From positions 1 to 41,273 of the forward strand of contig DUQB01000244.1 of NCBI GenBank assembly GCA_012838035.1: a stretch of 41,273 bases of DNA. Direction: 5' to 3'. This document shows positions 17,595-33,456 of the stretch, one piece after another. The notes under the pieces were generated by a model. It saw only the letters and a list, made by a program, of their open reading frames with translations, was not told the origin of the DNA and did no database searches. Position 1 is the stretch's first letter. Each line of letters starts with the position of its first letter. The translations under genes were made by a program, and so were the position numbers. Source of the stretch: Bacillota bacterium (GTDB lineage Bacteria; Bacillota; Limnochordia; DTU080).

Positions 17595-17647
17595 GGGAGA
17601 CGAGCGAGATGCGCGGCAATGCATCAGAGTAAGGAAGGAGTGGGTTG

Positions 17648-18673
17648 ATGAGTTCACCCACGGAAGCATTTATCGGTTGGATAAGAAGGGATACAAAGCG
17701 TAGCAGGAGCATAACTCGGGCGGCATTCGTACTCTTGCTGGTATTTACAGTGGTTGTTTCGGTGCGTGCTTTTGCCATTAAGGAAGTCACCATTTATCCG
17801 GAGGATGGGCAGCCCGTCACCATTAAAACAGCCGCTCTGCGAGTGGGGAATGCTCTAGCGCATTCCGGTATTGAAATCCGGGAAGGCGATGTCGTTACTC
17901 CGGCTTTGGAAGCTCCCGTGCGCAATGGCGACGTCATTTCCATCCGCCGTGCGTTTCCTGTTACCATCCACGCCGATGGACGGCAAATTGAGGTGAAGAC
18001 GGTCGGCGATACGGTCGGGCAAATACTGGCTTTGGCCGGCGTTGCCTTGAACGAATTCGACCGCACCATACCGGCGGTTTTTGACCGCATTCAGGAGCCT
18101 GTAAGCATAGAGGTCGTCCGCGTTGAGCACAGCGCATTGAACGTGATCATGCCGGTTGCCTACAAAACTGAACGCCGGGCTGATCCTAATATGGACCAAG
18201 GCCAAAAACGCGTTGCTCAAACCGGCGTTGACGGTACTCAGGAGGTTAGTTACCGACTGACCTATGAGAACGGGAAGTTGACCGGTAAGGAAGAGATCGG
18301 ACGCAAGGTGCTTGTAGAACCGGTCAATCAGATTGTTTATGAAGGTTCCCGCGTGGTGCCCAACACGGTGAAAACCAGTTCCGGCACCTACCTTAAATAC
18401 AAAGAGGTAAGGACCATGGAGGCCACCGCCTATATCCCAGGCACTCCCGGTATTACCGCAACCGGTATTAAGGCTAAAAAAGGTATTATCGCCGTGGATC
18501 CCAGAGTCATTCCCTTAGGTACCAGAGTGTATATACCTGGCTACGGTGAGGCTTTAGCCGCCGATACGGGGCGGCTGATCAAGGGTAACATTATCGATCT
18601 GTGTATGCCCACCTTGAACGAAGCCATTCAGTTCGGGCGCAGGCAGGTCACAGTATACATTCTGGCAGATTAA
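17648..18673 (+). CDS. YabE-like cell-wall protein with DUF348, G5 and 3D domains
   Basis: This 341-residue protein has a membrane anchor or signal segment (residues about 24-44). Two DUF348 repeats follow: 'VTIYPEDGQPVTIKTAALRVGNAL...' and 'VTIHADGRQIEVKTVGDTVGQIL...', at about 46-155. A G5 domain follows (about 170-250, 'VAYKTERRADPNMDQGQKRV'), then a C-terminal 3D domain (about 258-341) with 'ATAYIPGTPGITATG', 'IAVDPRVIPLGTRVYIPGYG' and 'AADTGRLIKGNIIDLC', the latter carrying the characteristic Asp residues. Relatives of B. subtilis YabE act on peptidoglycan, possibly as lytic enzymes. ATG 17648 follows AAGGAAGGAG by seven bases. Confidence 0.9.
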   Translation: MSSPTEAFIGWIRRDTKRSRSITRAAFVLLLVFTVVVSVRAFAIKEVTIYPEDGQPVTIKTAALRVGNALAHSGIEIREGDVVTPALEAPVRNGDVISIRRAFPVTIHADGRQIEVKTVGDTVGQILALAGVALNEFDRTIPAVFDRIQEPVSIEVVRVEHSALNVIMPVAYKTERRADPNMDQGQKRVAQTGVDGTQEVSYRLTYENGKLTGKEEIGRKVLVEPVNQIVYEGSRVVPNTVKTSSGTYLKYKEVRTMEATAYIPGTPGITATGIKAKKGIIAVDPRVIPLGTRVYIPGYGEALAADTGRLIKGNIIDLCMPTLNEAIQFGRRQVTVYILAD

Positions 18674-18690
18674 CGGACGCATCAACCAGT

Positions 18691-18791
18691 AGATATGCAA
18701 CAAGCCGGGCCCCCGGTGACGTTCATTGACTGTCACGGGGGGCGCCGGCTTGCTGTGCTTCAGCGGTACTGTTTCCTGTCGCTCAGTACTC
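18691..18791 (-). pseudogene. Relic: 3' end and hairpin of a lost sialidase-like gene (copy A)
   Basis: This roughly 100-bp segment is about 80% identical by eye to 20462-20560, which holds the last codons and 3' hairpin of the sialidase-like gene at 20552-22816. Copy A contains the same hairpin (CAAGCCGG 18701-18708 with CCGGCTTG 18745-18752) and the same Glu-Tyr-stop codons on the minus strand (GAGTACTGA at 18783-18791). The rest of the coding sequence is missing. Inner stem bases differ compensatorily between the copies (GTGAC/GTCAC here, CTGAC/GTCAG in copy B). It may also end the YabE-like transcript. Confidence 0.65.
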
Positions 18792-19052
18792 GTTCGGCGA
18801 AGTCTATCTATCAAAACTGGGAGGATGTAGTCCCACCTTGCTCTTGCGGTCTACATACACGATCTGTATCTGATGCATGACATGACGGAGACGAGGTGCG
18901 GACAGGATATCAAACCATCACCGAGAACATTATTCAATAGGCCGCCATACCTCACTGCGGTCGTGGATGCCCGGACGCAGCAGGCAGTGTAGGTTGGAGA
19001 AGGATATAGCGCCGCCACAGCTTTTAAACCATCATATCCGAGGGGGAAGTTC
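18792..19052. other. Leader region before a sugar-binding protein gene
   Basis: About 260 bp without a plausible gene. Apart from the ribosome binding site (AGGGGGAAG) of the downstream gene nothing is recognised; no clear -35/-10 pair is seen. Confidence 0.4.
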
Positions 19053-20327
19053 ATGAGGCTACAACAACATCGAGTGTCAACGGTCTTGGTGTTTACCTTG
19101 GTATTTTTGTTGAGTACATCAGCATCAACCTTTGCAGCTCAACCTACCGTCAAAATTACCCTTTGGCATCACTGGGCTCCGGAACTGATTGGTGAAGTAA
19201 TCGCCGGATTTCAGTTACGGTACCCATGGATTGAGGTCGAGCATATTACTAGCGACTATAGTAAGGCGGTCGACCGCATGGCAGTCTTATTGGCTACAGG
19301 AGCTGCGCCGGAGGTGATGATGGTCAACAGCGCCTATGCTTATCAGTTCATGAGCTTAGGTAGTTTTCTATTACTTGATGATCTACTTACCCGGGACAAC
19401 ATCCAACTTTCTATGTTCAACCCTGGAGATCTGCGCGGTTTCCAAGTTAGGGATAAGACCTACGGCTTGCCGTGTATGAGCGGATCCGCCTGGACTAATC
19501 TTATGTTTTATAACAAGGACTTGATGAATAACGTTGGATTAGATGCTGATCGGCCTCCGAGAACTTGGAGCGAGTGGCAAACGGCAGCCCGACGCATTAT
19601 GCGTGTAGACGGCAGCGGCAAAGTGATCCAAGGTTCACAGATTCCAAGACTCAGCAATATCGCTGCTTGGAATGGCTCCCAATTTTGGGATGAACAGTGG
19701 CGCACGGCTACGGTATCTAATCCGCGTACCATGGAGGCTATCACTTTTACTAGCGAACTGATCAGCTCTACTTATGGTTCACTGACCGCTCACGATCAAT
19801 TCCATCGAGGCGGTTTAAGCTTTTGGGAAGGGACATCAGGAATCATCTTTCCTAACAACTCTGGTTTTGGCGCGGCACAGAAGGTTGAGTTCAGCTGGGG
19901 CGCAGCGCTGGCGCCTGTGAATGAAGAGAACCCTGACTCCAGACCTATCAATATCGTCACCAGTACTTGGGCTTATGGTATTCCGGCCACTATCGCCAAA
20001 GATAAGCAGGAGGCCGCCTGGTTGTTATTACTGTGGCTTACCACCCACGAGGATGGTGGAGGCTATTTTGCCCGTGCGCAAGGACGTCCTAGTCCAGTTA
20101 TTAGATTCAACGGCCACCCGGACTATAGGAAGAACCCATACTGGAACGTCGTGATCGACGCTCTGCAATATGACATGCCGACACCGCCAGTCGATCCTGT
20201 AACCATCATTAATGATGCAGGTATGCAGATTCTTAACAACAAAGTCCATCCGCAACAGGCATTAGCCACAGCTGATCAGAAGCTACAGTTTGCGTTAGAT
20301 GAGTATTGGAAGGTTTTAGACAGGTAA
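19053..20327 (+). CDS. Extracellular sugar-binding protein, family 1
   Basis: This 424-residue protein has a signal peptide (hydrophobic residues about 9-28, cleavage near Phe-Ala-Ala) without a lipobox. The N-lobe starts 'VKITLWHHWAPELIGEVIAGFQLRYPWIEVEHI', typical of SBP_bac_1, followed by 'LPCMSGSAWTNLMFYNKDLM' near residue 140 and 'GGGYFARAQGRPSPV' near 345. The predicted role is capture of an oligosaccharide or sialic-acid-type sugar for import. The ligand is inferred only from the neighbouring sialidase-like and acetylesterase genes. ATG 19053 has AGGGGGAAG about six bases upstream. No permease genes are adjacent. Confidence 0.9.
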   Translation: MRLQQHRVSTVLVFTLVFLLSTSASTFAAQPTVKITLWHHWAPELIGEVIAGFQLRYPWIEVEHITSDYSKAVDRMAVLLATGAAPEVMMVNSAYAYQFMSLGSFLLLDDLLTRDNIQLSMFNPGDLRGFQVRDKTYGLPCMSGSAWTNLMFYNKDLMNNVGLDADRPPRTWSEWQTAARRIMRVDGSGKVIQGSQIPRLSNIAAWNGSQFWDEQWRTATVSNPRTMEAITFTSELISSTYGSLTAHDQFHRGGLSFWEGTSGIIFPNNSGFGAAQKVEFSWGAALAPVNEENPDSRPINIVTSTWAYGIPATIAKDKQEAAWLLLLWLTTHEDGGGYFARAQGRPSPVIRFNGHPDYRKNPYWNVVIDALQYDMPTPPVDPVTIINDAGMQILNNKVHPQQALATADQKLQFALDEYWKVLDR

Positions 20328-20360
20328 TCGTTTAGGCTACAGTCAATGGCTACGGCGAGT

Positions 20361-20393
20361 AAGAGGCTGCTCACACATCAGAAGCAGCCTCTT
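20361..20393 (+). terminator. Gene-end hairpin without U-tract
   Basis: A perfect 10-bp stem (AAGAGGCTGC with GCAGCCTCTT) with a 13-nt loop lies 33 nt after the stop codon at 20327 and is followed by GC-rich, not T-rich, sequence. Confidence 0.55.
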
Positions 20394-20464
20394 GGCGCGC
20401 CCGGCACGTCCGGCGGATGCAGCCGTTGTAGTGATGAATCCTTAGGTACCAGATTGTACATCAT

Positions 20465-20524
20465 ACAACAAGCCGGTCCCCCGCTGACATTCGTCGACTG
20501 TCAGAAGAGGCGCCGGCTTGTTGT
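20465..20524 (-). terminator. 3' hairpin of the sialidase-like gene (copy B)
   Basis: ACAACAAGCCGG (20465-20476) is perfectly complementary to CCGGCTTGTTGT (20513-20524), with an inner CTGACA/TGTCAG stem. It lies 27 nt past the minus-strand stop codon. No U-tract follows on the minus strand. A diverged second copy is at 18697-18756. Confidence 0.6.
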
Positions 20525-20551
20525 GCTTCAGCAGCTATGTTTCGATGTTGC

Positions 20552-22816
20552 TCAGTACTCTTCAGCTATGAGCGCATCCAGCTCAGCTAAGGTGAACCGC
20601 ACGCTGACCACTGATGGTCTTTCTCCCGGGTATAAGGGTACGTAGGTCGTCGATACGAAAGTGCCGTCCGGCAGCAACTCCAAGCCTGCATAACCTGTAT
20701 CATGGAATAGCCTTTTGTTCTCCAGCAGTTTGACGCGATATTGGCCGGGGCGCAGGTTAACCAAGTCCTCCCAGGTGCCGACCCAAGCTACGAAGTCCGT
20801 GTAGCTCGGACTACCTTCGAACACGTCACGGAACGTGATCACCAGACGCCCGTCGGGAGCGTAAACCGGTTTATGCCGATCGCCGGTCAACGTATCGGGA
20901 AGCTCAACCGGCGCCGACCAAGTCTGTCCTTCATCTTTGCTGACAATCAGCATAGAGTTGTAGCGCCGCGAGTTCTCCCGGATCAACACGGCGATCTCCT
21001 TACCGTCGGGTGACTGAATGGCTGCCGGCTCGACCAAGGCGGCGTTCGGATAGGCGGCGATCATCCGCTGGTTCGACCAGGTGAGTCCGCCGTCTTCGCT
21101 GATCGCCATCTGAATGCGTGAGCCTTGTTGGAACACCGTTAAGTAGCGACCTCCGGATATGGGGATAACGGTGTTGGGGGCGACCGGACCGCGTAACCCG
21201 GTTTGGCGGAAAGGCGTCCAGGTGTTGCCGTTGTCTTCCGAAATGGCGATGGAGAGATAATCCTCGGCGTTATCTCGATGCACCTCTTCACCCGGGCGCG
21301 TCATATTTTGGAACGCCACGAGCCGCTCAACCCCATCAGGATCGGTAAGGCGGAATATGGTAGGCACATTGGCGGTACGGCTCCAGTTGTCAGGTACCGG
21401 CAGTCTTTCGCTCCAGGTTTTACCTCCATCGGTGCTCCGCCTTAAGACGGTCGCGCCGCCGTGTCCTAACGGATAAACGATGAGGATCGTTTGATCATCC
21501 GCGAGCAGGACGGAGTCGGGGTGACCCAAATACTCTCCCGGTATACGATCAATCACGGTCTGTCGCCATGTGTCGCCTGAAATGTCGATCTGCGGAATGC
21601 CTCCCATAAATCCCGCATCGCCCGCGGGAATAGACAGCTCGGTCTTCAGCGCCGATAAAGCGATATCCTTTTCGTCGACTAAAACAAAGGTCAATACTAG
21701 ATTGTGAGTGGCGTCTTTATCAAGTCGGTCGCCCAAGTTGAACGAGATTTCGTCCGGTTCAGCAGACACGTCAACAACCGTCTCGTAAAGGAGCGCTTGC
21801 TCTTCAATCAATTGCCATTCGCCGTCGGTCATGCGGTAGATGTCGGCGAAGAGCCGTAAATGAACGTCTGCTACCGGACCGTCGCCGTATAGATAGAATG
21901 CGCCTTCCACTTCCCCATGCCGGCGCTGTAGTTGCGCGATTTGAGCTGTGACTCTACCTGCAATAACCTTCATCTCATAGGTGAGTCCGGATGACCAGAC
22001 ATGTCCTTCCGGCGTTAATTCCAGGCAGATCTGCCATTGGCCGGGGCTCAGCATATCAACAGCGAGCGGTATGTTGTATTTTCCCGCAGCAAGAGAAGCT
22101 TGCGCCAGCTCAACGCGCGCATCTCCTTGTTGCGCGATAAGCCGAAAGCTCTCAAGAGGGCGCGGCGATGTGAGCGCCAGTTCGAGGACCGCTGTTTCAT
22201 AGAGGCTCAGCACGTCGGTCGGCGTAAGAGCGTCGTCAATACCTGCCAATACGCGCCATTCGGTTCCCACGGGGATGAACAAAGGCTCTGTTTGCACAAC
22301 GTATTCCGACATGCGGCCGATTATATCCGACGTACTTGTATTCAGCGTTGTTTGCAGCGTGTAGACGATGGACCGGTTGGTTAGATCAACAATGAGGAGG
22401 GAAACGGCTCCCGTAACTGCGTCATAAGACAAGCTCGCTCTGTATGTATGCTCATATTGCGGTAGGAAGCGATGCAGCTGTCTGATCGCACCCGGCTTTT
22501 GCGCCGTCTCCGGCAATAGATCGCCGCTTAAGGTAAATAGCCAAGAAGCGAAACCGAAAGGCGAGGATTCCTTTGCCAACTTTAATGAGAGCAGGTTTTT
22601 CTCCGGCTCTTGGGGCGAGGTTAAAGCCGCCAGCTCAATCTGGCTGGTTGCGTCGGCCGCCTCTTGCGTCAAAACAAATTCCGCCACGATCGTGACGGCT
22701 GATTGCGTCGGGCTTTCGTCTAAAGGTGCGGCAGCCATCACGGCTTCAGAGGCAGGCCGGAGAAGAACGATAGGCATCACCGCAACCAACAACCATGAGA
22801 GCAATCTACCGGACAT
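20552..22816 (-). CDS. Secreted sialidase-like Asp-box protein
   Basis: This 754-residue protein has a signal peptide (residues about 5-30). An N-terminal half (to about residue 400) of beta-sandwich-like repeats follows, then a sialidase-type six-bladed propeller. Four Asp-boxes are visible: 'STDGGKTW', 'SEDNGNTW', 'SEDGGLTW' and 'SKDEGQTW'. An Arg-Ile-Pro precedes 'YLGHPDSVLL', and further Arg candidates are in 'LIRENSRR' and 'TFRD'; 'DTGYAGLELLPDG' holds a candidate nucleophilic Tyr. The usual blade-1 Glu-Gly-Arg is replaced by 'YPLGHGGATVL', so substrate should be treated as open (sialic acid or another glycan terminus). ATG 22816 is supported by AAAGGA. A paralogue lies at 30237-32507. 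Confidence 0.82.
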   Translation of the reverse strand: MSGRLLSWLLVAVMPIVLLRPASEAVMAAAPLDESPTQSAVTIVAEFVLTQEAADATSQIELAALTSPQEPEKNLLSLKLAKESSPFGFASWLFTLSGDLLPETAQKPGAIRQLHRFLPQYEHTYRASLSYDAVTGAVSLLIVDLTNRSIVYTLQTTLNTSTSDIIGRMSEYVVQTEPLFIPVGTEWRVLAGIDDALTPTDVLSLYETAVLELALTSPRPLESFRLIAQQGDARVELAQASLAAGKYNIPLAVDMLSPGQWQICLELTPEGHVWSSGLTYEMKVIAGRVTAQIAQLQRRHGEVEGAFYLYGDGPVADVHLRLFADIYRMTDGEWQLIEEQALLYETVVDVSAEPDEISFNLGDRLDKDATHNLVLTFVLVDEKDIALSALKTELSIPAGDAGFMGGIPQIDISGDTWRQTVIDRIPGEYLGHPDSVLLADDQTILIVYPLGHGGATVLRRSTDGGKTWSERLPVPDNWSRTANVPTIFRLTDPDGVERLVAFQNMTRPGEEVHRDNAEDYLSIAISEDNGNTWTPFRQTGLRGPVAPNTVIPISGGRYLTVFQQGSRIQMAISEDGGLTWSNQRMIAAYPNAALVEPAAIQSPDGKEIAVLIRENSRRYNSMLIVSKDEGQTWSAPVELPDTLTGDRHKPVYAPDGRLVITFRDVFEGSPSYTDFVAWVGTWEDLVNLRPGQYRVKLLENKRLFHDTGYAGLELLPDGTFVSTTYVPLYPGERPSVVSVRFTLAELDALIAEEY

Positions 22817-23061
22817 GTACCATCATTCCTTTCCACGGTGAACTTAGAAAACATGCTGTTTCTGCAGCAGACTCGGCATGTGGACCGCAAGCGTCGGAAC
22901 CCGGCGCTACGCTGCGTACCTTGGTCTGACCTGGTTTGTCTGCAGGTCTATACGCAACATGGACAAAAAGCCGTTTATGCTGTGGGCGGCGCTTGAAAGA
23001 GCCGCCGGATTAATACCGTCACGTGCAGATATTACGTGCTGCCGCGCTGAAATCCTTATCC

Positions 23062-23328
23062 TTATAAATCAGGCATAGCGCGAGGCACACGTTTTTGCGA
23101 GCGTAATACACAGTGTATAGGCATCCGTTCCACAGTGCTGCCATCGGGCCTCATTTCACCCATCAACCATTGAAACATGTGATGTATATACGAGTAGCGG
23201 GGACGGATTCCTCCCTGGTTTTCGTCTTGGGCACAGAAGTGACGGCGACAAGCACGTAAAACCGGGAAGGGATCCAGTCGCTTGCGTAGAAAGATCAGAT
23301 GTCCAACATCTGGTAATTGGTTATTCAT
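23062..23328 (-). CDS. Small unknown ORF (copy X), related to 26205-26450
   Basis: This ORF of up to 88 residues begins 'MNNQLPDVGHLIF' and contains 'RPRYSYIHHMFQWLMGE'. It shares with the ORF at 26205-26450, which runs on the opposite strand, the blocks Asp-Val-Gly-His (residues 7-10) and Tyr-Ile-His-His (47-50) at the same 40-residue spacing, with 'KRL' and 'FC' residues between. The two therefore appear homologous. No strong ribosome binding site is present (GAGGA directly abuts the ATG). It may be a small gene or a truncated remnant, for example the N-terminal part of a regulator. The function is unknown. Confidence 0.4.
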   Translation of the reverse strand: MNNQLPDVGHLIFLRKRLDPFPVLRACRRHFCAQDENQGGIRPRYSYIHHMFQWLMGEMRPDGSTVERMPIHCVLRSQKRVPRAMPDL

Positions 23329-23401
23329 TCCTCATAATCGGACGCTCGGCGCGTTGGTCTCGGAATCTAGCTGATGGTACTAGTGCAAGGGAGTGTGCGG
23401 C

Positions 23402-26047
23402 ATGAAAAGAAAAAAGACGCAGCTGTTGTTCATCGCGATACTGATTATTCAGGGTTTGACGGTAGCGGCTTTTGGGGAGGCGGCTGTATTGAGCTTACCA
23501 ACCATCTTTTCCGACAACATGGTGATCCAACGAGATAAGCCCATCCACATTTGGGGCAAGGCTGATGCGCAAGAGCGGATCCGGGTGGAATTCGCCGGTA
23601 GCTCGGCCACCACGGTTGCGCAGAATGGTCATTGGGAAATTTGGTTGGATCCGGTTCCGGCAGGCGGTCCGTTTGAACTGGTAGTTTCCGGCGAGAATCA
23701 GGTAAAACGCTTCCGTAACGTGTTGGTAGGCGATGTATGGATCGCCAGTGGGCAGTCGAACATGGCGGCCAATTTGAGAAACGTGACGGAAGGCAGCGAT
23801 GCCGTCAGCTTGGCGCATAGGCAAGAAGCGACGAAACTGGCGAACTCACAAATACGGTTGTTCCAACCGACCATCGTTTCCAGCCGGGTTCCGCTCTCCG
23901 ACTATAGCGCAGGCGGGTGGCGTGTCGGCAATCTTGCGGAAGCATATTCATTCTCTGCCGTCGGTTTCTATTTTGCCGGCTATCTGCAGCAAGCACTGGA
24001 CATACCCATCGGCATCATTCAGTTGGCGAGAGGCGGATCGCCGGCGCAGGCATGGATGCCGTTGGAGGCATTCGAGACTTCACCGACCATGCGACAGATT
24101 AAGGGGATGACGGAAGAGCTCGAAACCAACGACTACAACCAACCGGCAGCTCTGTACAACGGCATGATTGCTCCTGCGCACAACTTCCCCGTGAAAGGGG
24201 TTATCTGGTATCAAGGTGAGCGCAACGCGAATTTATATCACACTACGGATTACGCCGCAGTGATGACGGCGCTAATCAACAGTTGGCGGCAGAAATGGCA
24301 AGAGCAGTTGCCTTTTCTAATTGTGCAACTGCCGGCATACAGCGCTAACAACACGTGGCCTCGTCTCAGAGATGCGCAGCGTAAAGTCGCTTTAACCAAC
24401 GAGAACGTGGGCCTGGCCGTTACTATCGATACGGGAGACAGGAACGACATCCATCCTAAAAACAAAATGCCGGTGGGCTATCGCTTGGCTCTGCAGGCCA
24501 GATGCCTCGTATATGGCGAGGACATCGTCTGTTCCGGACCAACCATTGAGCGGGCGGAGGGTTTGGAGTACGAAGTCCGCTTAACCTTCAACAATATTGG
24601 TAGTGGGTTAACATCTACAAGAGCAGAGTTGGCAGGTTTTCAATTGTGCGCGACCAACGGATCATGCGTTCCGGCGGAGGCGATTATTGAGGAACAACAG
24701 GTGATTGTGTGGAGCGATGAACTAGAGCGACCTGCGGCAGTGGCCTATGCCTGGAGTGATTTTCCCGAGGTGAGCCTGTTCAATAAGGAAGGTTTGCCTG
24801 CAGCGCCGTTTTATACCGAGATCGATTATGCGCTCGGTGCGGATGCGCCAGGCATCAAGGTGATGAACTATCCCATCGCCGCAGGAGGGCGTCCGTCCCT
24901 GTTTGTGTTGACCGGTACGGCCTCCATAGAGGCGAACAGTCTGCAACCAGGGGAGAAGTTAGTCGTGCGTCTGCAGGAAACGGGTAGCGCTACGACTTCC
25001 ACAACCAGGTTCAGTGTTGCCGAGACCGCTCCTCTGTCGCTGCCGTTCATTCTCACCTCCGATGACCACCTATTCCATTTGGATACTCAGCAGGTGGCCG
25101 ATGGCGTCTATAACTTAGTGTTCGAATGGCGCAGCGCTACTGAACCGCCGATTGTCACTAATGTTCCTGTCGTTATCTGCAACAATGCGGCACTGGAGCA
25201 GTACCTGGAGCGATTTCCCGAGTTAAGTGGGCCTACCGGTTTGTCAAGACTAGTCATCGATGGGCGACCACTGGGACGCGTCCGGCTCACCAAGCCGGTT
25301 ACGGGGGACATAGTCGCAGGTAAACTGTCGATTGAGTACGATGGTGTTCACCCATTGGTAATGAAACAAATGGAAGTAACGCTGCAACCTGCATACGGTC
25401 ATGACGGCTCCGGCGGCGCGATGTCTCCCATATGTATTTATTCGGGCGCCGCTTTGCCGGACAGCCTGATATATGACACGACGCAGGTGGCTGATGGGGC
25501 CTATGACCTCGTACTTAACGTAACGCTGATAGATGGCGAGACCACAACCGTGAAGCGCCGCATTGCCGTGGACAACTGGGTAATATTGGCAGATGAGGTG
25601 GAGCCGCCGCTCGACAGCTGGTTCGGCGAAATGAAACGCATGCAGACGGTAGCTGCCACCACGGGTTGGGAGTTTACGGGAGATGCACGGAACATCCTGT
25701 TTGGTGACGCAGACCGGATTAGACGTAAAGCTGCAACCGAAGAATCACTCACTTGGCAGTTGCCCAGACTGCATAGCTTCGCGTTTACCGTCTATACTCG
25801 CGATACCCGGCTTATGTCGACTGTTCAGGTGGCGCTATCTTCTGACGGGGGATCATGGACCCCTGTCTCTTATGCAACAAATGTGCTTGAGCAAGACGCC
25901 ACAGGCTGGTGGCAAGTGGAGGTGGAGGGAACGGTACCGGCAGGTGTAAATGTCGACCGCATTCGGTTTACCGTCAGTGGCAACGATATACCGCCGGCCG
26001 ACTTGGAGCTCGGGAAGGTTTTGTTGACTGGGACTTCGGACTTCTAA
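23402..26047 (+). CDS. Large secreted sialate O-acetylesterase-like protein
   Basis: This 881-residue secreted protein removes, by family inference, O-acetyl groups from sialic acids or other glycans. A signal peptide (about 1-26) is followed by 'LPTIFSDNMVIQRDKPIHIWG', the start of the SIAE-type domain. The SGNH nucleophile motif is 'IASGQSNM' (Ser119), with 'VKGVIWYQGERNAN' near 265-275 and the catalytic Asp/His in 'GDRNDIHPKNKMPVGYR' (Asp349, His351). Residues about 470-881 are a C-terminal extension of beta-rich repeats ('QQVADGVYNLVF', 'TQVADGAYDLVL') and a last carbohydrate-binding-like domain. ATG 23402 follows AAGGGAG by eight bases. Typical SIAE proteins are about 450-650 residues, so this one is unusually long. 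Confidence 0.88.
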   Translation: MKRKKTQLLFIAILIIQGLTVAAFGEAAVLSLPTIFSDNMVIQRDKPIHIWGKADAQERIRVEFAGSSATTVAQNGHWEIWLDPVPAGGPFELVVSGENQVKRFRNVLVGDVWIASGQSNMAANLRNVTEGSDAVSLAHRQEATKLANSQIRLFQPTIVSSRVPLSDYSAGGWRVGNLAEAYSFSAVGFYFAGYLQQALDIPIGIIQLARGGSPAQAWMPLEAFETSPTMRQIKGMTEELETNDYNQPAALYNGMIAPAHNFPVKGVIWYQGERNANLYHTTDYAAVMTALINSWRQKWQEQLPFLIVQLPAYSANNTWPRLRDAQRKVALTNENVGLAVTIDTGDRNDIHPKNKMPVGYRLALQARCLVYGEDIVCSGPTIERAEGLEYEVRLTFNNIGSGLTSTRAELAGFQLCATNGSCVPAEAIIEEQQVIVWSDELERPAAVAYAWSDFPEVSLFNKEGLPAAPFYTEIDYALGADAPGIKVMNYPIAAGGRPSLFVLTGTASIEANSLQPGEKLVVRLQETGSATTSTTRFSVAETAPLSLPFILTSDDHLFHLDTQQVADGVYNLVFEWRSATEPPIVTNVPVVICNNAALEQYLERFPELSGPTGLSRLVIDGRPLGRVRLTKPVTGDIVAGKLSIEYDGVHPLVMKQMEVTLQPAYGHDGSGGAMSPICIYSGAALPDSLIYDTTQVADGAYDLVLNVTLIDGETTTVKRRIAVDNWVILADEVEPPLDSWFGEMKRMQTVAATTGWEFTGDARNILFGDADRIRRKAATEESLTWQLPRLHSFAFTVYTRDTRLMSTVQVALSSDGGSWTPVSYATNVLEQDATGWWQVEVEGTVPAGVNVDRIRFTVSGNDIPPADLELGKVLLTGTSDF

Positions 26048-26204
26048 GCCGGATGAGCATTGCCGCGTAATAACTTGTACAAGGGGCTTGTGAGGGAGGT
26101 GCGGCAGTATCTCACACAAGCATTCCGGCATATGGATCATGGGGATCGATTTACTGACGTCTAGGCCTCGGCATACATGGGCGGCTGCATCCGGTTGCTG
26201 AACA

Positions 26205-26450
26205 TTGGATGTTGGACATATGATCATTACATGTGCTAAAAGGCTTTTCTGCATCGCTCAGCAACTTTTTTGCCACAAAATGACAACAAATTGTCCGGTA
26301 GGAAGGAAATGGCACATCGCTTTCGTATATATACATCATACCTTTAGTGGAGTACGCGCAAAGCCACTCAAACATATTACCGGTTATCCATACGAACCGG
26401 CCGATTGGAGAGTGACCTTGCGCAGGCTGGAACACGGTCAAATTAGCTAA
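26205..26450 (+). pseudogene. Small unknown ORF (copy Y), homologous to 23062-23328
   Basis: This reading frame opens directly after an in-frame TGA and has no ribosome binding site or good start (TTG). It still conserves the Asp-Val-Gly-His and Tyr-Ile-His-His blocks of copy X at identical spacing. It lies in the opposite orientation to X, and X and Y flank the acetylesterase gene. It is probably a decaying copy. Confidence 0.4.
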
Positions 26451-26476
26451 ATACTGTACATGAGGGGGTTTATTGT

Positions 26477-27733
26477 ATGCGTAGAGGATTTTGGTCAGCT
26501 CTCTTCTGTCTCGTCATTTTAATCGGGTGTTTGTCGGCATCCGCCGCACAGGTTGAATTAACCATATGGGCATGGCCGGCCGGAACGACCAACGGCGATA
26601 TTCTAGCCAGATATATCGCCATGTATGAAGAACAGAATCCGCATGTCACAATCAAAGTGGAAAAACAAGGTAACCAGGAAAAGCAGCTGCTGGTAGCCTT
26701 TGCCGCCGATGCCGCGCCGGATATCGTCCAAGGCGTGGGTACTTGGGCGAACACCTTGGGGCCAATGGGGGTTCTGCTGCCTCTGGACTCCTTTATTGAC
26801 GGACCAAACGGGTTCCCTCGCGATGACTTTATCGACGACCTGTGGTCCTTTTGTTCGGTCGACGGGGTAACCTATCAGTTGGCGGCGGACAGTAATGAAC
26901 GAGCCCTGTTTGTCGATGCCGATGCTGCGGAGAGTACGGGCATCGCGCTCAGTCAGCCTATACGCGATTGGAACGACTTGTTGCAGTGGGCTAGGAAACT
27001 TACCTATCGCGTTGGCGATAAGGTAGAGCGCTGGGGCTTCGATATGCACCAAGAGAATACGGGCAGCCGTTGGCACTGGATATGGCTGAACGAAGGTGAA
27101 ATTTTCTCTAAAGATAAGACCCAGTCGGTACTGGATCACCCCAACACCATAGAAGCCATCAAGTTTGCGGCCGATATGGTGAACTCCTATCATGTGTCGC
27201 CTAGACCGGGTGAAGTCACAGGTGGTTCCAAACAAAACTTTATGAACGGTAAGTATGGAATGATGATCACCGCATCGTCATTTGTGAAAACGCTGCAGGA
27301 GCGGAATGCGAATTTCATCACCGTCCCGGGTCCGCCGGGGCCGGGTAAAGGTGGTTACCGCTTCTCAGGCGCTTCCAACAGCGTCATGGGCGTGTTGAGC
27401 TCATCTAAGCATCCGGAGGAAGCTTGGGCGTTCTTGCGCTGGTTAATGTACGAGCAAGGCGTGGAATTCGCCAGGGAGTTGGGCGGCATACCCTATTTGA
27501 AGAACGCCTTGCGCGATCCCAAGTATACCAGGCAGCCCTACAACGCTTTTGCCGTCTCGATCACCACCTATCAACCTCGGAACAACTATATGGCAGGGGT
27601 ATCGACGTCCGACTGGATGCCTCAGTTTGACGCCGCGTGGGCAGCTGCGTTACGTCAAGAACAAGCGCCTGAGGTAGCGATTCAGCAGGCGATGGACGTT
27701 ATTAACGCTCGTATGGCGGAGTTACGCAAGTAG
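26477..27733 (+). CDS. Extracellular sugar-binding (lipo)protein, family 1
   Basis: This 418-residue protein starts with a signal peptide that contains a possible lipobox, Leu-Ile-Gly-Cys (Cys18); signal-peptidase-I cleavage after Ala-Ser-Ala is the alternative. The N-lobe reads 'VELTIWAWPAGTTNGDILARYIAMYEEQNPHVTIKVEKQG', typical of UgpB/MalE-like SBPs. 'AAPDIVQGVGTW' lies near residue 78 and 'NFMNGKYGMMITASSF' near 255. The predicted role is sugar capture for ABC import. AGGGGG lies eight bases before ATG 26477. It sits between the acetylesterase and a DUF4886 protein without permease genes. Confidence 0.92.
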   Translation: MRRGFWSALFCLVILIGCLSASAAQVELTIWAWPAGTTNGDILARYIAMYEEQNPHVTIKVEKQGNQEKQLLVAFAADAAPDIVQGVGTWANTLGPMGVLLPLDSFIDGPNGFPRDDFIDDLWSFCSVDGVTYQLAADSNERALFVDADAAESTGIALSQPIRDWNDLLQWARKLTYRVGDKVERWGFDMHQENTGSRWHWIWLNEGEIFSKDKTQSVLDHPNTIEAIKFAADMVNSYHVSPRPGEVTGGSKQNFMNGKYGMMITASSFVKTLQERNANFITVPGPPGPGKGGYRFSGASNSVMGVLSSSKHPEEAWAFLRWLMYEQGVEFARELGGIPYLKNALRDPKYTRQPYNAFAVSITTYQPRNNYMAGVSTSDWMPQFDAAWAAALRQEQAPEVAIQQAMDVINARMAELRK

Positions 27734-27768
27734 GCGTGTGTAATACCACAACCCGATAAGGTAGCGAC

Positions 27769-27791
27769 GATCCGCCCATTATGGGCGGATC
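27769..27791 (+). terminator. Gene-end hairpin without U-tract
   Basis: GATCCGCCC (27769-27777) pairs perfectly with GGGCGGATC (27783-27791) around a 5-nt loop, 36 nt after the stop codon at 27733. No T-run follows. Confidence 0.55.
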
Positions 27792-27855
27792 CATCTTAGG
27801 TAGGGGGTTGTTTGAGGATTGTCGGCCATATCGTTCGGAAAGAGGTGTAGTTTAG

Positions 27856-29199
27856 TTGTTGAGTCAACGATTTCGAGCAGGTAGGTTCTTGCTGTTTGTG
27901 ACAACTCTGGCGTTAATGAGCGCTTTAACGTGTATAGCTTCGGCTAATCCCCCGCTCAGTACCATGAAGTCCTTTAAGGTGCTGGCCATTGGCAACAGCT
28001 TCAGCACGGACGCCATGCAGCATCTGTATCAGATTGCCGCGGAGGCTGGAGCGGAGAACATTGTCATCGCCAACCTATACGTTGGGAGCGCCAGCTTAAC
28101 AGTGCATCGCACGAATGCTCAGGGCAACCTGGCCAATTACCGCTACGATAAAAACGACAACGGGACTTGGCGTTCAGAAAGCAACCGCACCTTGCTCTAC
28201 GGATTGCAGGACGAGGATTGGGATGTGATCACGCTGCAGCAGGTGAGCGGGCAAAGCGGCGTAGAAACCTCATATGCGGCTGCCGGCGATTTACAGTACT
28301 TAATCGACTATGTCAACAAGCACAAGACCAATTCGCAGGCCAAACTGGTTTGGCACATGACTTGGGCATACGAATTGACCAGTACTCACGGGGCGTTTTC
28401 CACCTACTACGGGCGAGATCAGCTGCTCATGTATAAGGCTATAGCCGCTGCCGTACAAAAGCACATCGTGCCCAACACAGCGTTTGCTATGGTTATCCCG
28501 TCCGGTACCGCCGTTCAGAACGTGCGTACCAGTTTTATCGGCGACACTCTTACCCGCGACGGATACCACCTCAGCAATAATCTGGGGCGCTATATCGCCG
28601 GGTTAACCTGGTTTTACGCTCTGACCGGACAGTCCATTGACGGTTTGACTTGGGTTCCGAGTAGCACGGAGATTCCCAGCCACTTTTTGCCCGTCATTAA
28701 AGAAGCAGTGAAGGCCGCCATAGAAACGCCTTTTGCTGTTACACCGTCTAGTTATGATGAGAATCCCGTATTACAAGCCGCCCTTACCATGGAAGGTTAT
28801 GAACTGCTGGACTGGCAACCGGTAGGGTGCTCGCATTGGAACGCAACCAGCGCCAACCCAACCAGGCTTAATACAAGGGAAAACAGCGATCTGACGAACC
28901 TGTGCTACTTCGTCAGTTCAGGCAAGATGTTCACCCGAGAGGATATCCCGATCGGCAGCATCATCGAGATCGATGAAGGGTATCAGTATCGGCCGGAAGG
29001 TTGGGTGACCCTGACAAGGCAACCGTCAGCGAACAGACCGACGCCGGTGAGAGAGAAAAAGGTCGTGGTGACTGAAGAGTGGTGGGGAGACTTCGTCTAC
29101 CGCTCGTTTAACGTCTCCTTTATTGGTAGCAAAACCGATGTTAGAGGTATTGAAGAAGAGACCGCATCTCATTTCCGCATTTGGGTGCCTAAGCAGTAG
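27856..29199 (+). CDS. Secreted DUF4886 (SGNH-like) hydrolase
   Basis: This 447-residue protein has a signal peptide (residues about 8-32) and a DUF4886 domain: 'FKVLAIGNSFSTDAM' (nucleophile Ser in Gly-Asn-Ser) near residue 40, 'DWDVITLQQVSGQSG' near 125, and 'TRDGYHLSNNLGRYIAGLTWF' near 235 with the Asp-x-x-His pair. These fit an SGNH-type esterase or acetylhydrolase acting outside the cell. The C-terminal 150 residues form an extra domain of unknown type. TTG 27856 follows AAAGAGGTG by about nine bases. Its position beside the acetylesterase and sialidase-like genes suggests glycan deacetylation; the substrate is unproven. Confidence 0.83.
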   Translation: MLSQRFRAGRFLLFVTTLALMSALTCIASANPPLSTMKSFKVLAIGNSFSTDAMQHLYQIAAEAGAENIVIANLYVGSASLTVHRTNAQGNLANYRYDKNDNGTWRSESNRTLLYGLQDEDWDVITLQQVSGQSGVETSYAAAGDLQYLIDYVNKHKTNSQAKLVWHMTWAYELTSTHGAFSTYYGRDQLLMYKAIAAAVQKHIVPNTAFAMVIPSGTAVQNVRTSFIGDTLTRDGYHLSNNLGRYIAGLTWFYALTGQSIDGLTWVPSSTEIPSHFLPVIKEAVKAAIETPFAVTPSSYDENPVLQAALTMEGYELLDWQPVGCSHWNATSANPTRLNTRENSDLTNLCYFVSSGKMFTREDIPIGSIIEIDEGYQYRPEGWVTLTRQPSANRPTPVREKKVVVTEEWWGDFVYRSFNVSFIGSKTDVRGIEEETASHFRIWVPKQ

Positions 29200-29245
29200 G
29201 CGCATAGTAAGAGTCGGCGGGCGGTTCAAATGGAAACTAAGGTCA

Positions 29246-29268
29246 GGGGCAGGCGCTCGTCCTGCCCC
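29246..29268 (+). terminator. Gene-end hairpin without U-tract
   Basis: GGGGCAGG (29246-29253) pairs with CCTGCCCC (29261-29268) around a 7-nt loop, 46 nt after the stop codon at 29199. No T-run follows. Confidence 0.55.
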
Positions 29269-29366
29269 GTCGACGAAGCCGCCGGCTGTCCGGCAGGAAA
29301 TGCGTCGCTATGTATGGAAAAGACCGCTTATCCGCTGTTTGATATTTTATTAGATGGAGCATTGTC

Positions 29367-30092
29367 TTGAGTCTGAAGCCGATTACGCGTCGTCATGCGA
29401 CATATCAGGAGATCATTGACCGTATTCGCAACTACATCATTGAATCGGAGCTTAAACCGGGAGATCGTCTGCCCTCGGAGCCGGTGATGGCAAAGACTCT
29501 GCAAGTCAACCGTTCTACGTTGCGAGAAGCTCTCAGAGCGCTACAATTGCTTGGCGTCATTGACGTAAAACACGGGCATGGTACTTTTGTCCGTGCTTTT
29601 AACCTTGATGCCGTATGGAGCAACTTAAACTACAACATGTTGCTCGATGCCACTGAGCTGAGAGAAGTGCTGGTAGTGCGCACGCGTTTGGAAGCAGCGT
29701 TTATTGCCGAAGTGGCGGAACAGGTTACTAAGGAACAGATAGCGGAGCTGTACGGCATCATAAACCGGATGCGAACTAGAGCAAGTTTGGATGAGCAGAT
29801 TATTAACGAAGATGAAGCTTTTCACATCGCCCTCTTCGCTCAGGTGGAAAACACCTTCCTCAAGCGGTTGTTAGCCATCTTTTGGCAAACCGTAAAGCAG
29901 ATGAAGCAACATGTAGAGCTGGTCAACGCCACCGATCTGCCCTCTGCCATTCACCGGCACGTTCTCCTCGTTGAGAGCCTGGAAAGAGGCGATGTCGCGG
30001 CTTTGCAGCACTACACGCTGCATCATAGCGATGGTTTCTTAGAAAGAGTAAACCGGGCGGTTGACAACTACAGGCAGATGCTAGGCGACTAA
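29367..30092 (+). CDS. FadR-subfamily GntR transcription regulator
   Basis: This 241-residue cytoplasmic regulator has an N-terminal winged helix ('YQEIIDRIRNYIIESELKPGDRLPSE', 'LQVNRSTLREALRALQLLGVIDVKHGHGTFV', residues about 13-75). A C-terminal FCD ligand domain (about 90-225) carries conserved Asp/His metal- or acid-binding residues ('EDEAFHIALF', 'HRHVLLVESLERGD', 'HHSDGFL'). FCD regulators usually sense organic acids or sugar acids. Its place within the glycan region makes it the likely local regulator. The TTG start 29367 has a modest TGGAG nine bases upstream. No matching operator repeats were found near the neighbouring genes. Confidence 0.9.
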   Translation: MSLKPITRRHATYQEIIDRIRNYIIESELKPGDRLPSEPVMAKTLQVNRSTLREALRALQLLGVIDVKHGHGTFVRAFNLDAVWSNLNYNMLLDATELREVLVVRTRLEAAFIAEVAEQVTKEQIAELYGIINRMRTRASLDEQIINEDEAFHIALFAQVENTFLKRLLAIFWQTVKQMKQHVELVNATDLPSAIHRHVLLVESLERGDVAALQHYTLHHSDGFLERVNRAVDNYRQMLGD

Positions 30093-30236
30093 GTGCTGAT
30101 GGGAAGGTTGTCGGCCGGCCGCGTGCATATCCTGTCGTCTGTAAATCACCTGGAGGTTCCGTGTTCAATGCACATAGCTGCCGCGCTTGGTGCGGGAGCC
30201 GTCAGTGAACCGGCGTACTTGAAGGAGCGGATCAGA

Positions 30237-32507
30237 TTGCGCAAGATCACCATTCCACTAATCCTACTCATTATCTGCGTATTCCAGTTTACGGCAGCGG
30301 CTACGGAGCAAGCTTTGACGGTAAGGACCAGTATAGACTTACGCGCAGTTAGTTTAGATGCAATCGAAGGTCTGCAACTGATCGGCATGACCACAGGCTC
30401 CGGGTCCGGTTGTCTTGAGCTGGTTTGGCAAAAAGATCAGAATGCATGGGGGTTTCCGCTATGGCGTCTGGTATTGCGGGGAGACGCCTCTCTGTTTCCT
30501 CAGGTAATGGCGGGAGCGCAACCCGATGCTAGCGATGCGAACAGCAAGTGGGTCAGTCTCGCTCTACTCACCCCCCAACCGGGTCGGAGTTACTCAGCCG
30601 CGCTGAGCTACGCCGCCACCAGCGGCATAGTGTCGCTTGCGTTGCTCGATGTGGAAGAACAAGTTGAGCTTTTTCAGCAGGAGTTGCAATTGCAGCCTCA
30701 GCTTGCCGCACAAGCGCTTCAGGTGATAAAGCCCGCGCACCAGGCAGTACGCCTTGACCAAGTAACGCCAGGGTATGTTCCGGTGGGTTTGGAGTGGCGC
30801 CTGGCGCTGCTGGATGATCCACTGGTCGGCATCAGTGCGCTATCCGGCGGTAGTCCCGCTGTGTTGCATTTTGCGCAGGCTTTGGGCGCAATCGATGGTC
30901 GCTTCAGATTGGTTGCTGAAACAGGCGCCGGGGAGCTGGTCCTCTGGGAAGGCGCAGGTGCTGATCCCATTACCTCTCAAGTTGTTGCGACATATGAGTT
31001 GCCTTATGGGAAGGCCCAGATAAGGCTGGAGTATCTTACCGGTAACCAGGTATGGATTATCGGTCGGCAACGCCTGGTTGACATCTATAGCGGTACGCTT
31101 GATGTAACCGTAAGCTCTGTTGGTTTTAGTGAGAACGCCATATCCGGTCAGATGGTAGTGGCAAGCGACGCTCCATTGGAGGAAATGGCTCTGACGTTGC
31201 TCGCGCGGGTTTATCGCTACGTGGCAGGTAGTTGGGTATTGAGCGGTGAAGAGCCGCTGCAGTTGCATACCCAGGTAACCATGGAGCAAGCCGGCGATGA
31301 AACAATACCTTTTACGCTGGATGTGCCGGGATTAGGCGATGGGCCGATACAAGTGGAGTTCACCTGGGTCACGGAAGAGAGACATGGCTGGCGCGTGCTG
31401 ACTTATAGCAGTACGATCGAGTTGACCAAGCCCGCTGAGCCGTGGCACAGCCCGATCCCCGTTTTGGATATTTCCGAGGAGCGCAGTAGGCTTACGATTG
31501 TCGACAGCATCATCGGCACTTATTTGGGGCATCCGGACACAGTACTCATGGGAGACGGACGTACCATGTTCGTCGTGTATCCCCTTGGTCATGGCGGAGC
31601 TACGGTGTTGAAGAGGAGCGATGACGGCGGTTTAAGCTGGAGTGACAGGTTACCGACGCCGGAGAATTGGCTGCAGACGGCCAATGTTCCCACCATTTTC
31701 CGCTTGACGGATTCCATAGGCACGGAACGATTGGTAGTCTTTAACAACATGACCTTGCCGTTCGATAGTCACTCGCCTGGTGGTCGAGGTAAGGATCTTC
31801 ACCAATCCGTCTCTATTGATGGGGGACAGACATGGACACCGTTGGAGCCTAATGGGATGTATACGCAAGTGGCGCCTAACACGGTGGTTCCCATTTCAGG
31901 CGGCAGATATCTCACTGTGTATCAAATAGACGGTCGCATCGCTCAGAGCATTACCGCAGACGGGGGTGTGACCTGGACGCATCAGGGTGTGATTGCCAGG
32001 CATCCGGTTGCCAGGCTTACTGAACCTGCTTTGATTACCTCGCCTGATGGAAAACAACTGGCCGTGTTGATCAGGGAGAATAGCCGTCAGTTTAACTCCA
32101 TGCTGATAGTGAGCAACGATGAAGGTGTTACCTGGAGCGCACCGGTTGAGTTACCCGATGTGCTTACCGGCGACCGGCATATGCCGAAGTATGCTGCAGA
32201 TGGGCGCCTGGTGATCACCTTCAGGGACCGATGCGTCGGCAGCTCGACATATGGTGACTTTGTCGCCTGGGTAGGCACTTACGACGACCTGGTGAACCTG
32301 CGTAATGGTTCGTATCGAGTGCGGCTGCTGCAAAGCTACGGCCAAGCCCGGGATATAGGGTATGCAGGGCTGGAGTTGCTGCCGGACGGTACTATGGTAT
32401 CTACCACCTATGCGCCTCTCTACGCCGGAGCTAGGCCTTCAGTGGTGAGTGTACGGTTCACTCTAGATGAATTCGACGCTATGCTGAAACAAATGGATGA
32501 GCAATGA
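30237..32507 (+). CDS. Secreted sialidase-like Asp-box protein, paralogue 2
   Basis: This is a 756-residue paralogue of the protein at 20552-22816 (754 residues). TTG 30237 is chosen because AAGGAG lies nine bases upstream and the protein then begins directly with a signal peptide; the open frame extends up to 30093, and ATG 30168 is an alternative. The C-terminal propeller is well conserved ('GHPDTVLM', 'YPLGHGGATVLKRS', 'LIRENSRQFNSM', 'DIGYAGLELLPDG') and has Asp-boxes 'SDDGGLSW', 'SIDGGQTW', 'TADGGVTW' and 'SNDEGVTW'. The N-terminal half is much more diverged, suggesting different binding specificity. It is followed by a strong intrinsic terminator. Confidence 0.82.
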   Translation: MRKITIPLILLIICVFQFTAAATEQALTVRTSIDLRAVSLDAIEGLQLIGMTTGSGSGCLELVWQKDQNAWGFPLWRLVLRGDASLFPQVMAGAQPDASDANSKWVSLALLTPQPGRSYSAALSYAATSGIVSLALLDVEEQVELFQQELQLQPQLAAQALQVIKPAHQAVRLDQVTPGYVPVGLEWRLALLDDPLVGISALSGGSPAVLHFAQALGAIDGRFRLVAETGAGELVLWEGAGADPITSQVVATYELPYGKAQIRLEYLTGNQVWIIGRQRLVDIYSGTLDVTVSSVGFSENAISGQMVVASDAPLEEMALTLLARVYRYVAGSWVLSGEEPLQLHTQVTMEQAGDETIPFTLDVPGLGDGPIQVEFTWVTEERHGWRVLTYSSTIELTKPAEPWHSPIPVLDISEERSRLTIVDSIIGTYLGHPDTVLMGDGRTMFVVYPLGHGGATVLKRSDDGGLSWSDRLPTPENWLQTANVPTIFRLTDSIGTERLVVFNNMTLPFDSHSPGGRGKDLHQSVSIDGGQTWTPLEPNGMYTQVAPNTVVPISGGRYLTVYQIDGRIAQSITADGGVTWTHQGVIARHPVARLTEPALITSPDGKQLAVLIRENSRQFNSMLIVSNDEGVTWSAPVELPDVLTGDRHMPKYAADGRLVITFRDRCVGSSTYGDFVAWVGTYDDLVNLRNGSYRVRLLQSYGQARDIGYAGLELLPDGTMVSTTYAPLYAGARPSVVSVRFTLDEFDAMLKQMDEQ

Positions 32508-32553
32508 GGTAAACCTGATAGTCGTTGAATCGTTATCGGTCATAACGCAGATG

Positions 32554-32597
32554 AACCAAGAACATTGCCGTAGTCGCTGTTCTTGGTTCTTTTTTTT
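32554..32597 (+). terminator. Intrinsic terminator of sialidase-like paralogue 2
   Basis: AACCAAGAAC (32554-32563) pairs perfectly with GTTCTTGGTT (32579-32588), followed by an eight-T run. Confidence 0.93.
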
Positions 32598-32604
32598 GGA
32601 TGAC

Positions 32605-33010
32605 TGGCAGTTACATAAGGTGCCTCGGCGAATCGCTAGAAAAGGTCATCTCTGATGGCGAGGCAGGTAAAACCGGCTAGGCAGCGGCTTTTCAGGCAAA
32701 CACCTACCAAAGGCCTTACAGGAACCCCCTGATACAGGGGTTCTTTTTGCGTCACTCCATTCTAAGCGATCCGTGGACCAACCCACCAGTTGGTAGTTAC
32801 ATAAGGTGGCTCGGCGAATCGCTAAAAAAGGTCACCACAGAGGCTGATGTAGGCAAAACCAGCTAGGCAGCGGCTTTTTAGGTAATCACCTACGAACGAT
32901 GCTATAGAAAAGGCCAGCTACAGACGTACTTCTAGTATCACTCCATTCTAAGCGATTCGTGGACCAAACCATCAGTTGGTAGTTACATAAGGTGGCCTCG
33001 GCGAATCGCC
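32605..33010. repeat. Tandem 186-bp non-coding repeat, about 2.2 copies
   Basis: Units begin at 32605, 32791 and 32977, exactly 186 bp apart; the third is cut after about 34 bp. The best conserved part spans each junction (about 75 bp: 32753-32825 and 32938-33010) and contains an imperfect inverted repeat, AGCGATCCG (32765-32773) with CGAATCGCT (32815-32823). A CAGCGGCTTTT-type block lies mid-unit. Unit 1 carries an intrinsic terminator that unit 2 has lost. No ORF spans a unit. The type of element is unknown; it may be a tandem structured RNA, a MITE-like repeat or an IS end. Confidence 0.8.
32722..32748 (+). terminator. Intrinsic terminator inside tandem repeat unit 1
   Basis: GAACCCC pairs with GGGGTTC around an 8-nt loop and is followed by five Ts. 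The corresponding part of unit 2 has no such hairpin. Confidence 0.75.
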
Positions 33011-33126
33011 AAATTTACAGTATTCATATACATCAAGCTATAGGTCATGTACAAGGCATTGATGAGGAGTATATCACCGCCAGGTTGAAGGAGCATCGTC
33101 ACCCGAATTCCTTTAGGTTAAAATAG
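32992..33126 (+). pseudogene. Possible C-terminal protein remnant after the tandem repeats
   Basis: An open frame ending at TAG 33124 reads like real protein ('HQAIGHVQGIDEEYITARLK', then 'EHRHPNSFRLK'), but it begins inside the truncated third repeat and has no convincing start. It could be the end of a transposase-like or other gene removed by rearrangement. I cannot assign a family. Confidence 0.3.
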
Positions 33127-33154
33127 ACTGACGGCAAACCGAGCAACCTGGCGG
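33077..33154. repeat. 11-bp perfect inverted repeat, 56-nt spacing
   Basis: CCGCCAGGTTG (33077-33087) and CAACCTGGCGG (33144-33154) are perfect inverted repeats. They span the end of the protein remnant and could be element ends or an RNA stem. The remaining sequence up to ksgA (33155-33456) shows nothing else recognised. Confidence 0.5.
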
Positions 33155-33456
33155 GAGCACTAGCCAGATACTGTTGCATATGAATGGCATCTTGTTAAAA
33201 TGGATTGGCCACGGCTTCATCACCCTGTGAACGAACAACGTGTTTTGCACCTCAAAATGAGTATGGGCGCTGTCGCGGCGAGGTCAGGCTCAGTCGCAGA
33301 TTGATGGGTGTTACTTCCGCAAAGGATGCTGTATGTGGGGAATACTGATGCCGGTCGGTAAGCTGATGTGCATTCCGGTTGGTCCGGATGGCGGTTCGCC
33401 TTGGGATTCGACCGGGTTGCCTAAACGAGAATAGGGTATCTTGGAGGAGCCTATCT

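Follow-up and report, generated by a model that had tools for sequence, protein, structure and literature searches.

In the genome of a Bacillota bacterium (assembly GCA_012838035.1; 3.72 Mb in 253 contigs), genes for sugar-type solute-binding proteins (SBPs) of ATP-binding cassette (ABC) importers greatly exceed those for permeases, and the same excess is found in several related genera. The stretch of DNA analysed here (the window) is one contig of this genome, DUQB01000244.1 (41,273 nt; contig C195 of genome G000 in our numbering). In it, a block at positions 18674–33378 is a discrete insertion between two housekeeping genes and carries two such orphan SBPs together with predicted glycan-active enzymes and a regulator. 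Taken alone, the block is a new member of a familiar kind of locus, and the genome-wide pattern of orphan sugar SBPs is what stands out. In the reading we propose, to which we give an even chance, the inserted block works as a self-contained cassette for scavenging glycans and is probably one of dozens in the genome that share a common plan.

Sugar-binding proteins outnumber permeases

SBP_bac_1 was matched 139 times in the genome (about 135 ABC-type sugar-binding proteins), and the permease family BPD_transp_1 was matched 20 times. By coordinates, only three SBPs genome-wide lie within approximately 2 kb of a permease (on contigs C139, C218 and C206), and a second SBP on C206 is 4.9 kb from one. 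CUT1-type permeases were recognised only at C139, as two pairs in one cluster (EAARxDG motifs; NCBIfam matches to GlcU, UgpE and UgpA), where they adjoin an SBP domain-containing protein of 1029 aa. The permease pair at C218 carries EAAxDLG motifs and was read as polyamine-type (Pot-like, by motif), and the other classified permeases are Pst or Opp/Dpp; this typing covers the classified permeases, several single ones being left outside it. In the usual account of ABC sugar import, each SBP works with a permease of its own, and about 135 sugar-type SBPs against one recognised CUT1 locus depart from that account. A preliminary description had portrayed the block as a secreted glycan-deacetylation locus with sialidase-like proteins and orphan binding proteins, perhaps little described and with an open substrate; as a locus of glycan deacylation this is supported, and the orphan status proved to be far wider than the block.

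Sixty relatives were compared, the counts being first-look candidates, with up to 31 SBP and up to 45 permease candidates scored per genome. The SBP/permease candidates numbered 195/20 in G001, 145/21 in G002, 124/38 in G003, 62/15 in G007, 82/19 in G016, 80/23 in G028 and 60/31 in G034, an excess of approximately 2- to 10-fold in these seven relatives, against a median SBP/permease ratio of 0.32 in the other 53. The same skew is therefore present in several related genera, and typical class-mates are without it. In a tree of 138 SBPs, the best within-genome identity had a median of 34%, and several clades were common with relatives. The low identity and the shared clades indicate that the expansion is old and diverse, and a single recent radiation is not supported on these grounds. 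No earlier report of an expansion of orphan ABC sugar SBPs was found in the open-access literature, which was also searched for solute-binding proteins in Limnochordia; this absence is weak evidence.

For the neighbourhoods of the SBP genes, approximately 1 Mb was fetched; gene calling there used a simple hexamer model, which reproduced the genes of the window. An assembly artefact as the cause of the missing permeases was discarded, since 56 of the 109 SBP genes in the fetched regions are flanked on each side by 3 kb or more of sequence and the relatives show this skew as well. The idea that the SBPs are lipoproteins was dropped as well: a lipobox-like motif was found in only 2 of the 109, and one protein of the block (P0004), with LIGC, could be one. 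Proteins adjacent to SBPs matched URO-D-like, FAD_oxidored, LacI, AraC, ROK, BNR_2, heparinase II/III, DUF4962, sulfatase, SASA, GH43 and GH78. Distant genes of the same fetched regions served as the control, and the comparison was made among the 25 commonest Pfam families per set; the families from LacI to GH78 in this series were not among the 25 commonest of the control. Proteins of at least 600 aa were enriched beside SBPs (35/154 versus 15/163 in distant genes), and multi-transmembrane proteins were depleted there (6/164 versus 18/183, nominal p 0.03). This depletion argues against an alternative permease family at the SBP loci, and a divergent family of that kind was not seen beside the SBPs. 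Among neighbours of the orphan SBPs of this genome, URO-D-like proteins accounted for 7/153 and FAD_oxidored proteins for 5/153.

Either a few shared permeases import sugars for a large set of SBPs, or sensing is the main role of the SBPs, and the genome is a concrete system for asking which. Both ideas have been raised for SBPs of tripartite tricarboxylate transporters (TTT) in Bordetella and Rhodoplanes, and orphan TTT SBP expansions are known in Bordetella, Cupriavidus and Rhodoplanes (PMC5994714). If the orphan SBPs had no part in transport and instead sensed or captured glycans in the periplasm, reporting each one to regulators or chemoreceptors, the ratio of about 135 SBPs to one CUT1 locus would be accommodated, as would the regulators that often adjoin SBP genes, and a sensing role has been suggested for the orphan SBPs of TTT systems (PMC5994714). 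However, the adjoining regulators are mostly cytosolic DNA-binding proteins (LacI, GntR, ROK, AraC), which need their ligand inside the cell, and no sensor kinase family is prominent beside the SBPs. We regard a purely sensory role as rather unlikely.

A block inserted between yabE and ksgA

The surroundings of the block are those of a Bacillota spore-former (DnaD-type protein, DnaB helicase, yabE, ksgA, VEG, SleB-like and SipL/LysM). Its left flank is a yabE-like gene (17645–18673, + strand; Pfam G5, DUF348 and 3D), and its right flank is ksgA/rsmA (33379–34299, + strand; NCBIfam ksgA, 279 bits, cut-off 171). According to tblastn, yabE directly precedes ksgA in 14 of the 20 relatives with a located ksgA, with dnaB just upstream; a 15th has the arrangement likewise, but cut by a contig end. 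The family-mates G001 and G002 both show contiguous yabE and ksgA. In the genome studied here, the two genes are 14.7 kb apart, and their contiguity in relatives identifies 18674–33378 as a discrete insertion. The genome also encodes Omp85, indicating that the host cell probably has an outer membrane. Cultured Limnochordia are diderm (PMC11456536), and the host may belong to this class.

An 81-nt hairpin repeat (RNA fold z −3.9) is located at the left junction, 22 bp 3′ of yabE (18695–18775, + strand), and a second copy, 81% identical to the first, lies behind the SBP 1 gene (20463–20543, + strand). No further copies were present in the fetched regions of the genome, and the idea that the repeat marks the end of a mobile element was dropped. 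Upstream of ksgA is a non-coding tandem repeat of 186 nt in two copies (79%; 32605–32976, + strand), with a third partial copy reaching to approximately 33009.

Open reading frames and Pfam matches, with signal peptides judged by inspection only, yielded the same seven genes as the preliminary description at the same positions, namely two SBP_bac_1, two BNR, one SASA, one DUF4886 and one GntR/FCD gene, all but the regulator encoding secreted proteins. SBP 1 (P0001; 19053–20327, + strand; SBP_bac_1, E = 4e-21) has a signal peptide, matches ABC sugar-binding proteins in the PDB and has no permease nearby. SBP 2 (P0004; 26477–27733, + strand; SBP_bac_1/8, with SBP_bac_1 at E = 5e-27) likewise matches sugar SBPs in the PDB. 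The SBP_bac_1 and SBP_bac_8 matches exceed the Pfam cut-off. P0002 (20552–22816, − strand; BNR_2, E = 3e-14) comprises a signal peptide, an all-beta module (approximately aa 31–360) and a propeller of non-canonical BNR type (approximately aa 400–754). P0007 (30237–32507, + strand; BNR_2, E = 2e-11), also composed of module and BNR domain, is a near full-length paralogue of P0002, with 44% identity over 733 aa. Its open reading frame begins at 30093; by inspection, the likelier start is the TTG at 30237 behind GAAGGAG, and the resulting protein of approximately 755 aa has a clean signal peptide at its N-terminus.

P0003 (23402–26047, + strand; SASA, E = 8e-19) is a predicted secreted carbohydrate esterase of SASA/SIAE type. 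Its open reading frame begins at 23393, and the likelier ATG at 23402 gives the 881 residues reported earlier. Residues 38–476 align with SIAE-type esterases in the PDB (9h4u, 7kmm and 8f9o; E down to 4e-86) over the whole catalytic part, and the SGNH-type motifs GQSN, QGE and DIHP were found by inspection. Unlike these esterases, P0003 has an extra C-terminal part of approximately 400 aa, with no assigned family. P0005 (27856–29199, + strand; E = 1.5e-76) is a secreted DUF4886 SGNH hydrolase with GNSFS and DGYH motifs, from a family with four genes in the genome. P0006 (29367–30092, + strand) is a GntR/FCD regulator whose closest NCBIfam model is NanR, at 86.5 bits far below the cut-off of 260, and it is therefore not assigned to NanR. 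Within 18674–33378, no permease, lyase, epimerase or kinase was found, in agreement with the preliminary description, and the window as a whole has no cognate permease pair. Outside the block, at the left end of the window (3–2423), there are two further orphan SBP_bac_1 genes, upstream of a POR oxidoreductase operon.

The N-terminal module of P0002 (window 21734–22702) recurs in P0007 (30309–31322). Residues 31–360 of P0002 matched no Pfam family, and this all-beta module of approximately 330 aa is not described before. Its structural model (pLDDT 81) is all-beta, with a jelly roll-like domain followed by immunoglobulin-like domains. Foldseek returned generic beta-sandwich proteins only (TM approximately 0.3 or less); at these values only the all-beta nature of the module is usable, and derivation of a function from the fold was abandoned. 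Copies of the module number 20 in this genome and 24 in G003, and it is present in nine other genomes, fused to BNR, metallophosphatase, PHP, GHL10, GH123 or EEP domains. In counts that ignore phylogeny, 7 of the 8 SBP-skewed genomes carry it, versus 3 of 53 others. An SBP gene lies at most two genes from the module protein in most of the relatives' loci examined and, in the genome studied here, for 9 of the 14 module proteins in the fetched regions. Among the copies on secreted proteins are those at loci L138, L097, L137, L111, L088, L141, L078 and L104.

The co-occurrence in relatives that the preliminary description called for was found in part. The BNR genes often accompany SBPs, and in G003, of a related family, a 42% homologue of SBP 2 adjoins a gene encoding module and BNR domain; the SASA and DUF4886 genes do not accompany them. 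This last result, together with the divergent orientation of P0002 and the large gaps, would suit a loose genomic island on which unrelated secreted proteins landed together. Yet most of the block lies between two full-length BNR paralogues, the pairing of an SBP with a module-bearing enzyme recurs across genera, and in the planctomycete locus L046 a SIAE-type gene is the immediate neighbour of a BNR gene. The case for chance juxtaposition is weakened by this recurrent pairing and by the insertion of the block between yabE and ksgA, and there is only a slight chance that a loose island is the right account.

The propeller proteins and the sialate question

The C-terminal 350 residues of P0002 and P0007 belong to a family whose members, 41–67% identical to P0002, come from Planctomycetota, Verrucomicrobiota, Lentisphaerae, Candidatus Zipacnadia, one cultured Bacteroidota strain, one Spirochaetaceae metagenome-assembled genome and class-mates. 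The AlphaFold2 model of the BNR domain (pLDDT 93.6) is a beta-propeller of sialidase fold with Asp boxes, like the six-bladed-type propeller of the GH33 exo-sialidases. In Foldseek its nearest solved structure was an uncharacterised propeller from Dyadobacter, followed by sialidases, with GH33 structures at E values of 4e-13 and above and TM scores of approximately 0.56–0.68. Throughout a 38-member alignment, the RIP arginine, the first of the Arg triad, is replaced by YxGH(P/V). The loop before the first Asp box reads YPxGHG or WTxGHG and contains no Asp, whereas canonical enzymes have EGR...GDID. In comparison with three canonical RIP/EGR sialidases encoded elsewhere in the same genome, the RIP Arg, the acid/base Asp and EGR are absent in the aligned family.

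The preliminary description had noted YPLGHGG in place of EGR as an alteration of the first blade; the replacement is real, but it is not a local change, YPxGHG being a hallmark conserved across phyla. The active-site check that it proposed gave a mixed result. E197, R214 and Y310 are invariant, and hhalign places them on E180, R196 and Y288, which we take, from general knowledge of GH33, to be the catalytic Glu, the second Arg and the nucleophile Tyr; a local HMMER alignment shifts the register by one blade, and no clear counterpart of the third Arg emerged. Lacking the RIP Arg, the acid/base Asp and EGR, the Asp-box domains of P0002 and P0007 are not canonical sialidases, and the idea that they act as ordinary sialidases on O-acetylated terminal sialic acid is not supported. 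The family is an uncharacterised, sialidase-like propeller of several phyla that lacks key sialidase residues, so where sialic acid use has been annotated on the strength of this family, the annotation may be mistaken.

Neighbouring genes in relatives lend some substance to the earlier hint at sialate. A gene of the DHDPS/NAL family (NanA-like aldolase) is near the BNR family in 9 of approximately 40 loci, NanA above cut-off stands beside it in two class-mates, and the BNR locus of G007 contains NAL-like, NanE and N-acetylglucosamine (GlcNAc)-kinase-like genes with two orphan SBPs. This proximity to NanA and NanE makes a nonulosonic-acid substrate of the family plausible. The block could accordingly be read as a sialic acid utilisation locus, in which the BNR proteins are true exo-sialidases and the esterases take O-acetyl groups off sialic acid. 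Its SIAE-type esterase adjoins sialidase-fold proteins, the genome contains NanE (C158) in addition to the three RIP/EGR sialidases, and NanR is the model closest to P0006. Against such a locus stand the replacement of the RIP Arg by the GH(P/V) motif and the loss of the acid/base Asp and EGR, the absence of Nan genes from the block and the activity of SASA proteins on many O-acetylated glycans. Moreover, the locus on contig C199 fits sialate better, and overall we consider sialic acid utilisation by the block improbable.

The C199 locus (approximately 29813–35182; L079:4813–10182) contains an orphan SBP, a RIP/EGR sialidase, a NAL-like aldolase, a second RIP-bearing BNR protein and a NanR-like GntR regulator, with no permease there. 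With its canonical sialidase, it is a better sialate candidate than the inserted block.

Alternatively, the target may be an acidic plant or algal polysaccharide, for example of pectin type with 3-deoxy-D-lyxo-heptulosaric acid (Dha), 3-deoxy-D-manno-octulosonic acid (Kdo) or O-acetylated uronate, in which case the BNR proteins would act on some keto-deoxy sugar different from sialic acid. An altered BNR site in which Glu, one Arg and Tyr are kept (by hhalign) would suit such a substrate. The family of the NAL-like aldolases beside BNR genes acts on keto-deoxy acids in general, and heparinase II/III, DUF4962, GH43 and GH78 proteins adjoin SBPs elsewhere in the genome. However, the block is without a pectin lyase or a uronate pathway, and the reading is purely inferential; we think it improbable to the same degree as sialic acid utilisation.

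Proposed working of the cassette and comparison with known systems

A cassette of the proposed plan would combine one or two orphan periplasmic sugar SBPs with at least one secreted glycan-active enzyme and a regulator of its own, and would have no permease dedicated to it. In the block, the esterases P0003 and P0005 would strip acyl groups off the glycan. P0002 and P0007 would hold it by the all-beta module at their N-terminus, and their apparently retained Tyr/Glu/Arg set would serve to release or modify an acidic sugar of ulosonic type at the chain end. The two SBPs, P0001 and P0004, would capture the product in the periplasm of an outer-membrane cell, and P0006 would sense it and control the genes of the block. 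Import may proceed via shared carriers, for example those of the one CUT1 locus (C139) or transporters outside the ABC class, and under shared import the SBPs would form an exchangeable recognition layer.

Several points weigh against this proposal. Any transport route is conjectural, and the permeases at C139 may work with nothing but the 1029-aa SBP protein beside them. The genes of the block are not one operon, P0002 being on the opposite strand and the gap between P0003 and P0004 measuring approximately 430 bp; the block has no sialate lyase, epimerase or kinase; and its full gene set is not conserved in relatives. The neighbour control was limited to distant genes of the same regions and the 25 commonest families, and the first-look nature of the relatives' counts and the disregard of phylogeny in the module counts point the same way.

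Among known systems, the TTT expansions (PMC5994714) are similar in having dozens to hundreds of SBP genes and very few membrane components, most of the SBPs being orphaned and linked to other functions, including regulators. They occur in Proteobacteria, whereas the present SBPs are of ABC type (SBP_bac_1), often stand beside glycan enzymes and belong to a Bacillota genome with sporulation genes and a probable outer membrane. Polysaccharide utilisation loci of Bacteroidetes are also numerous and modular, and each unites a glycan-binding protein with secreted enzymes for glycans and a regulator of its own; here, by contrast, the SBPs are of periplasmic ABC type, and neither SusC/SusD nor a dedicated importer was seen in the locus. 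In the CUT1 operons of Bacillota, SBPs of this family likewise stand with carbohydrate enzymes and LacI/GntR regulators, but in this genome essentially all SBP loci are without permease genes. We tentatively suggest, while considering it somewhat unlikely, that a diderm Bacillota lineage has given up dedicated sugar ABC importers for a many-to-one design, in which more than 100 exchangeable periplasmic SBPs, many of them in small cassettes that include regulators and secreted enzymes (some of these with the lineage-typical module), feed one or very few shared permeases or serve in sensing, and in which the YPxGHG-bearing BNR proteins are a new glycoside-active family with a reduced sialidase site. 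If true, this design would be a functional counterpart of the Bacteroidetes loci, built from ABC binding proteins.

Two further features were observed in the window outside the block. A PhoPQ_related (PqaA-like) protein is encoded at 6697–8010, in a Bacillota genome. Near the contig end, positions 39717–39884 match the Rfam family group-II-D1D4-3 (68 bits, cut-off 32), which suggests a group II intron or its remnant.

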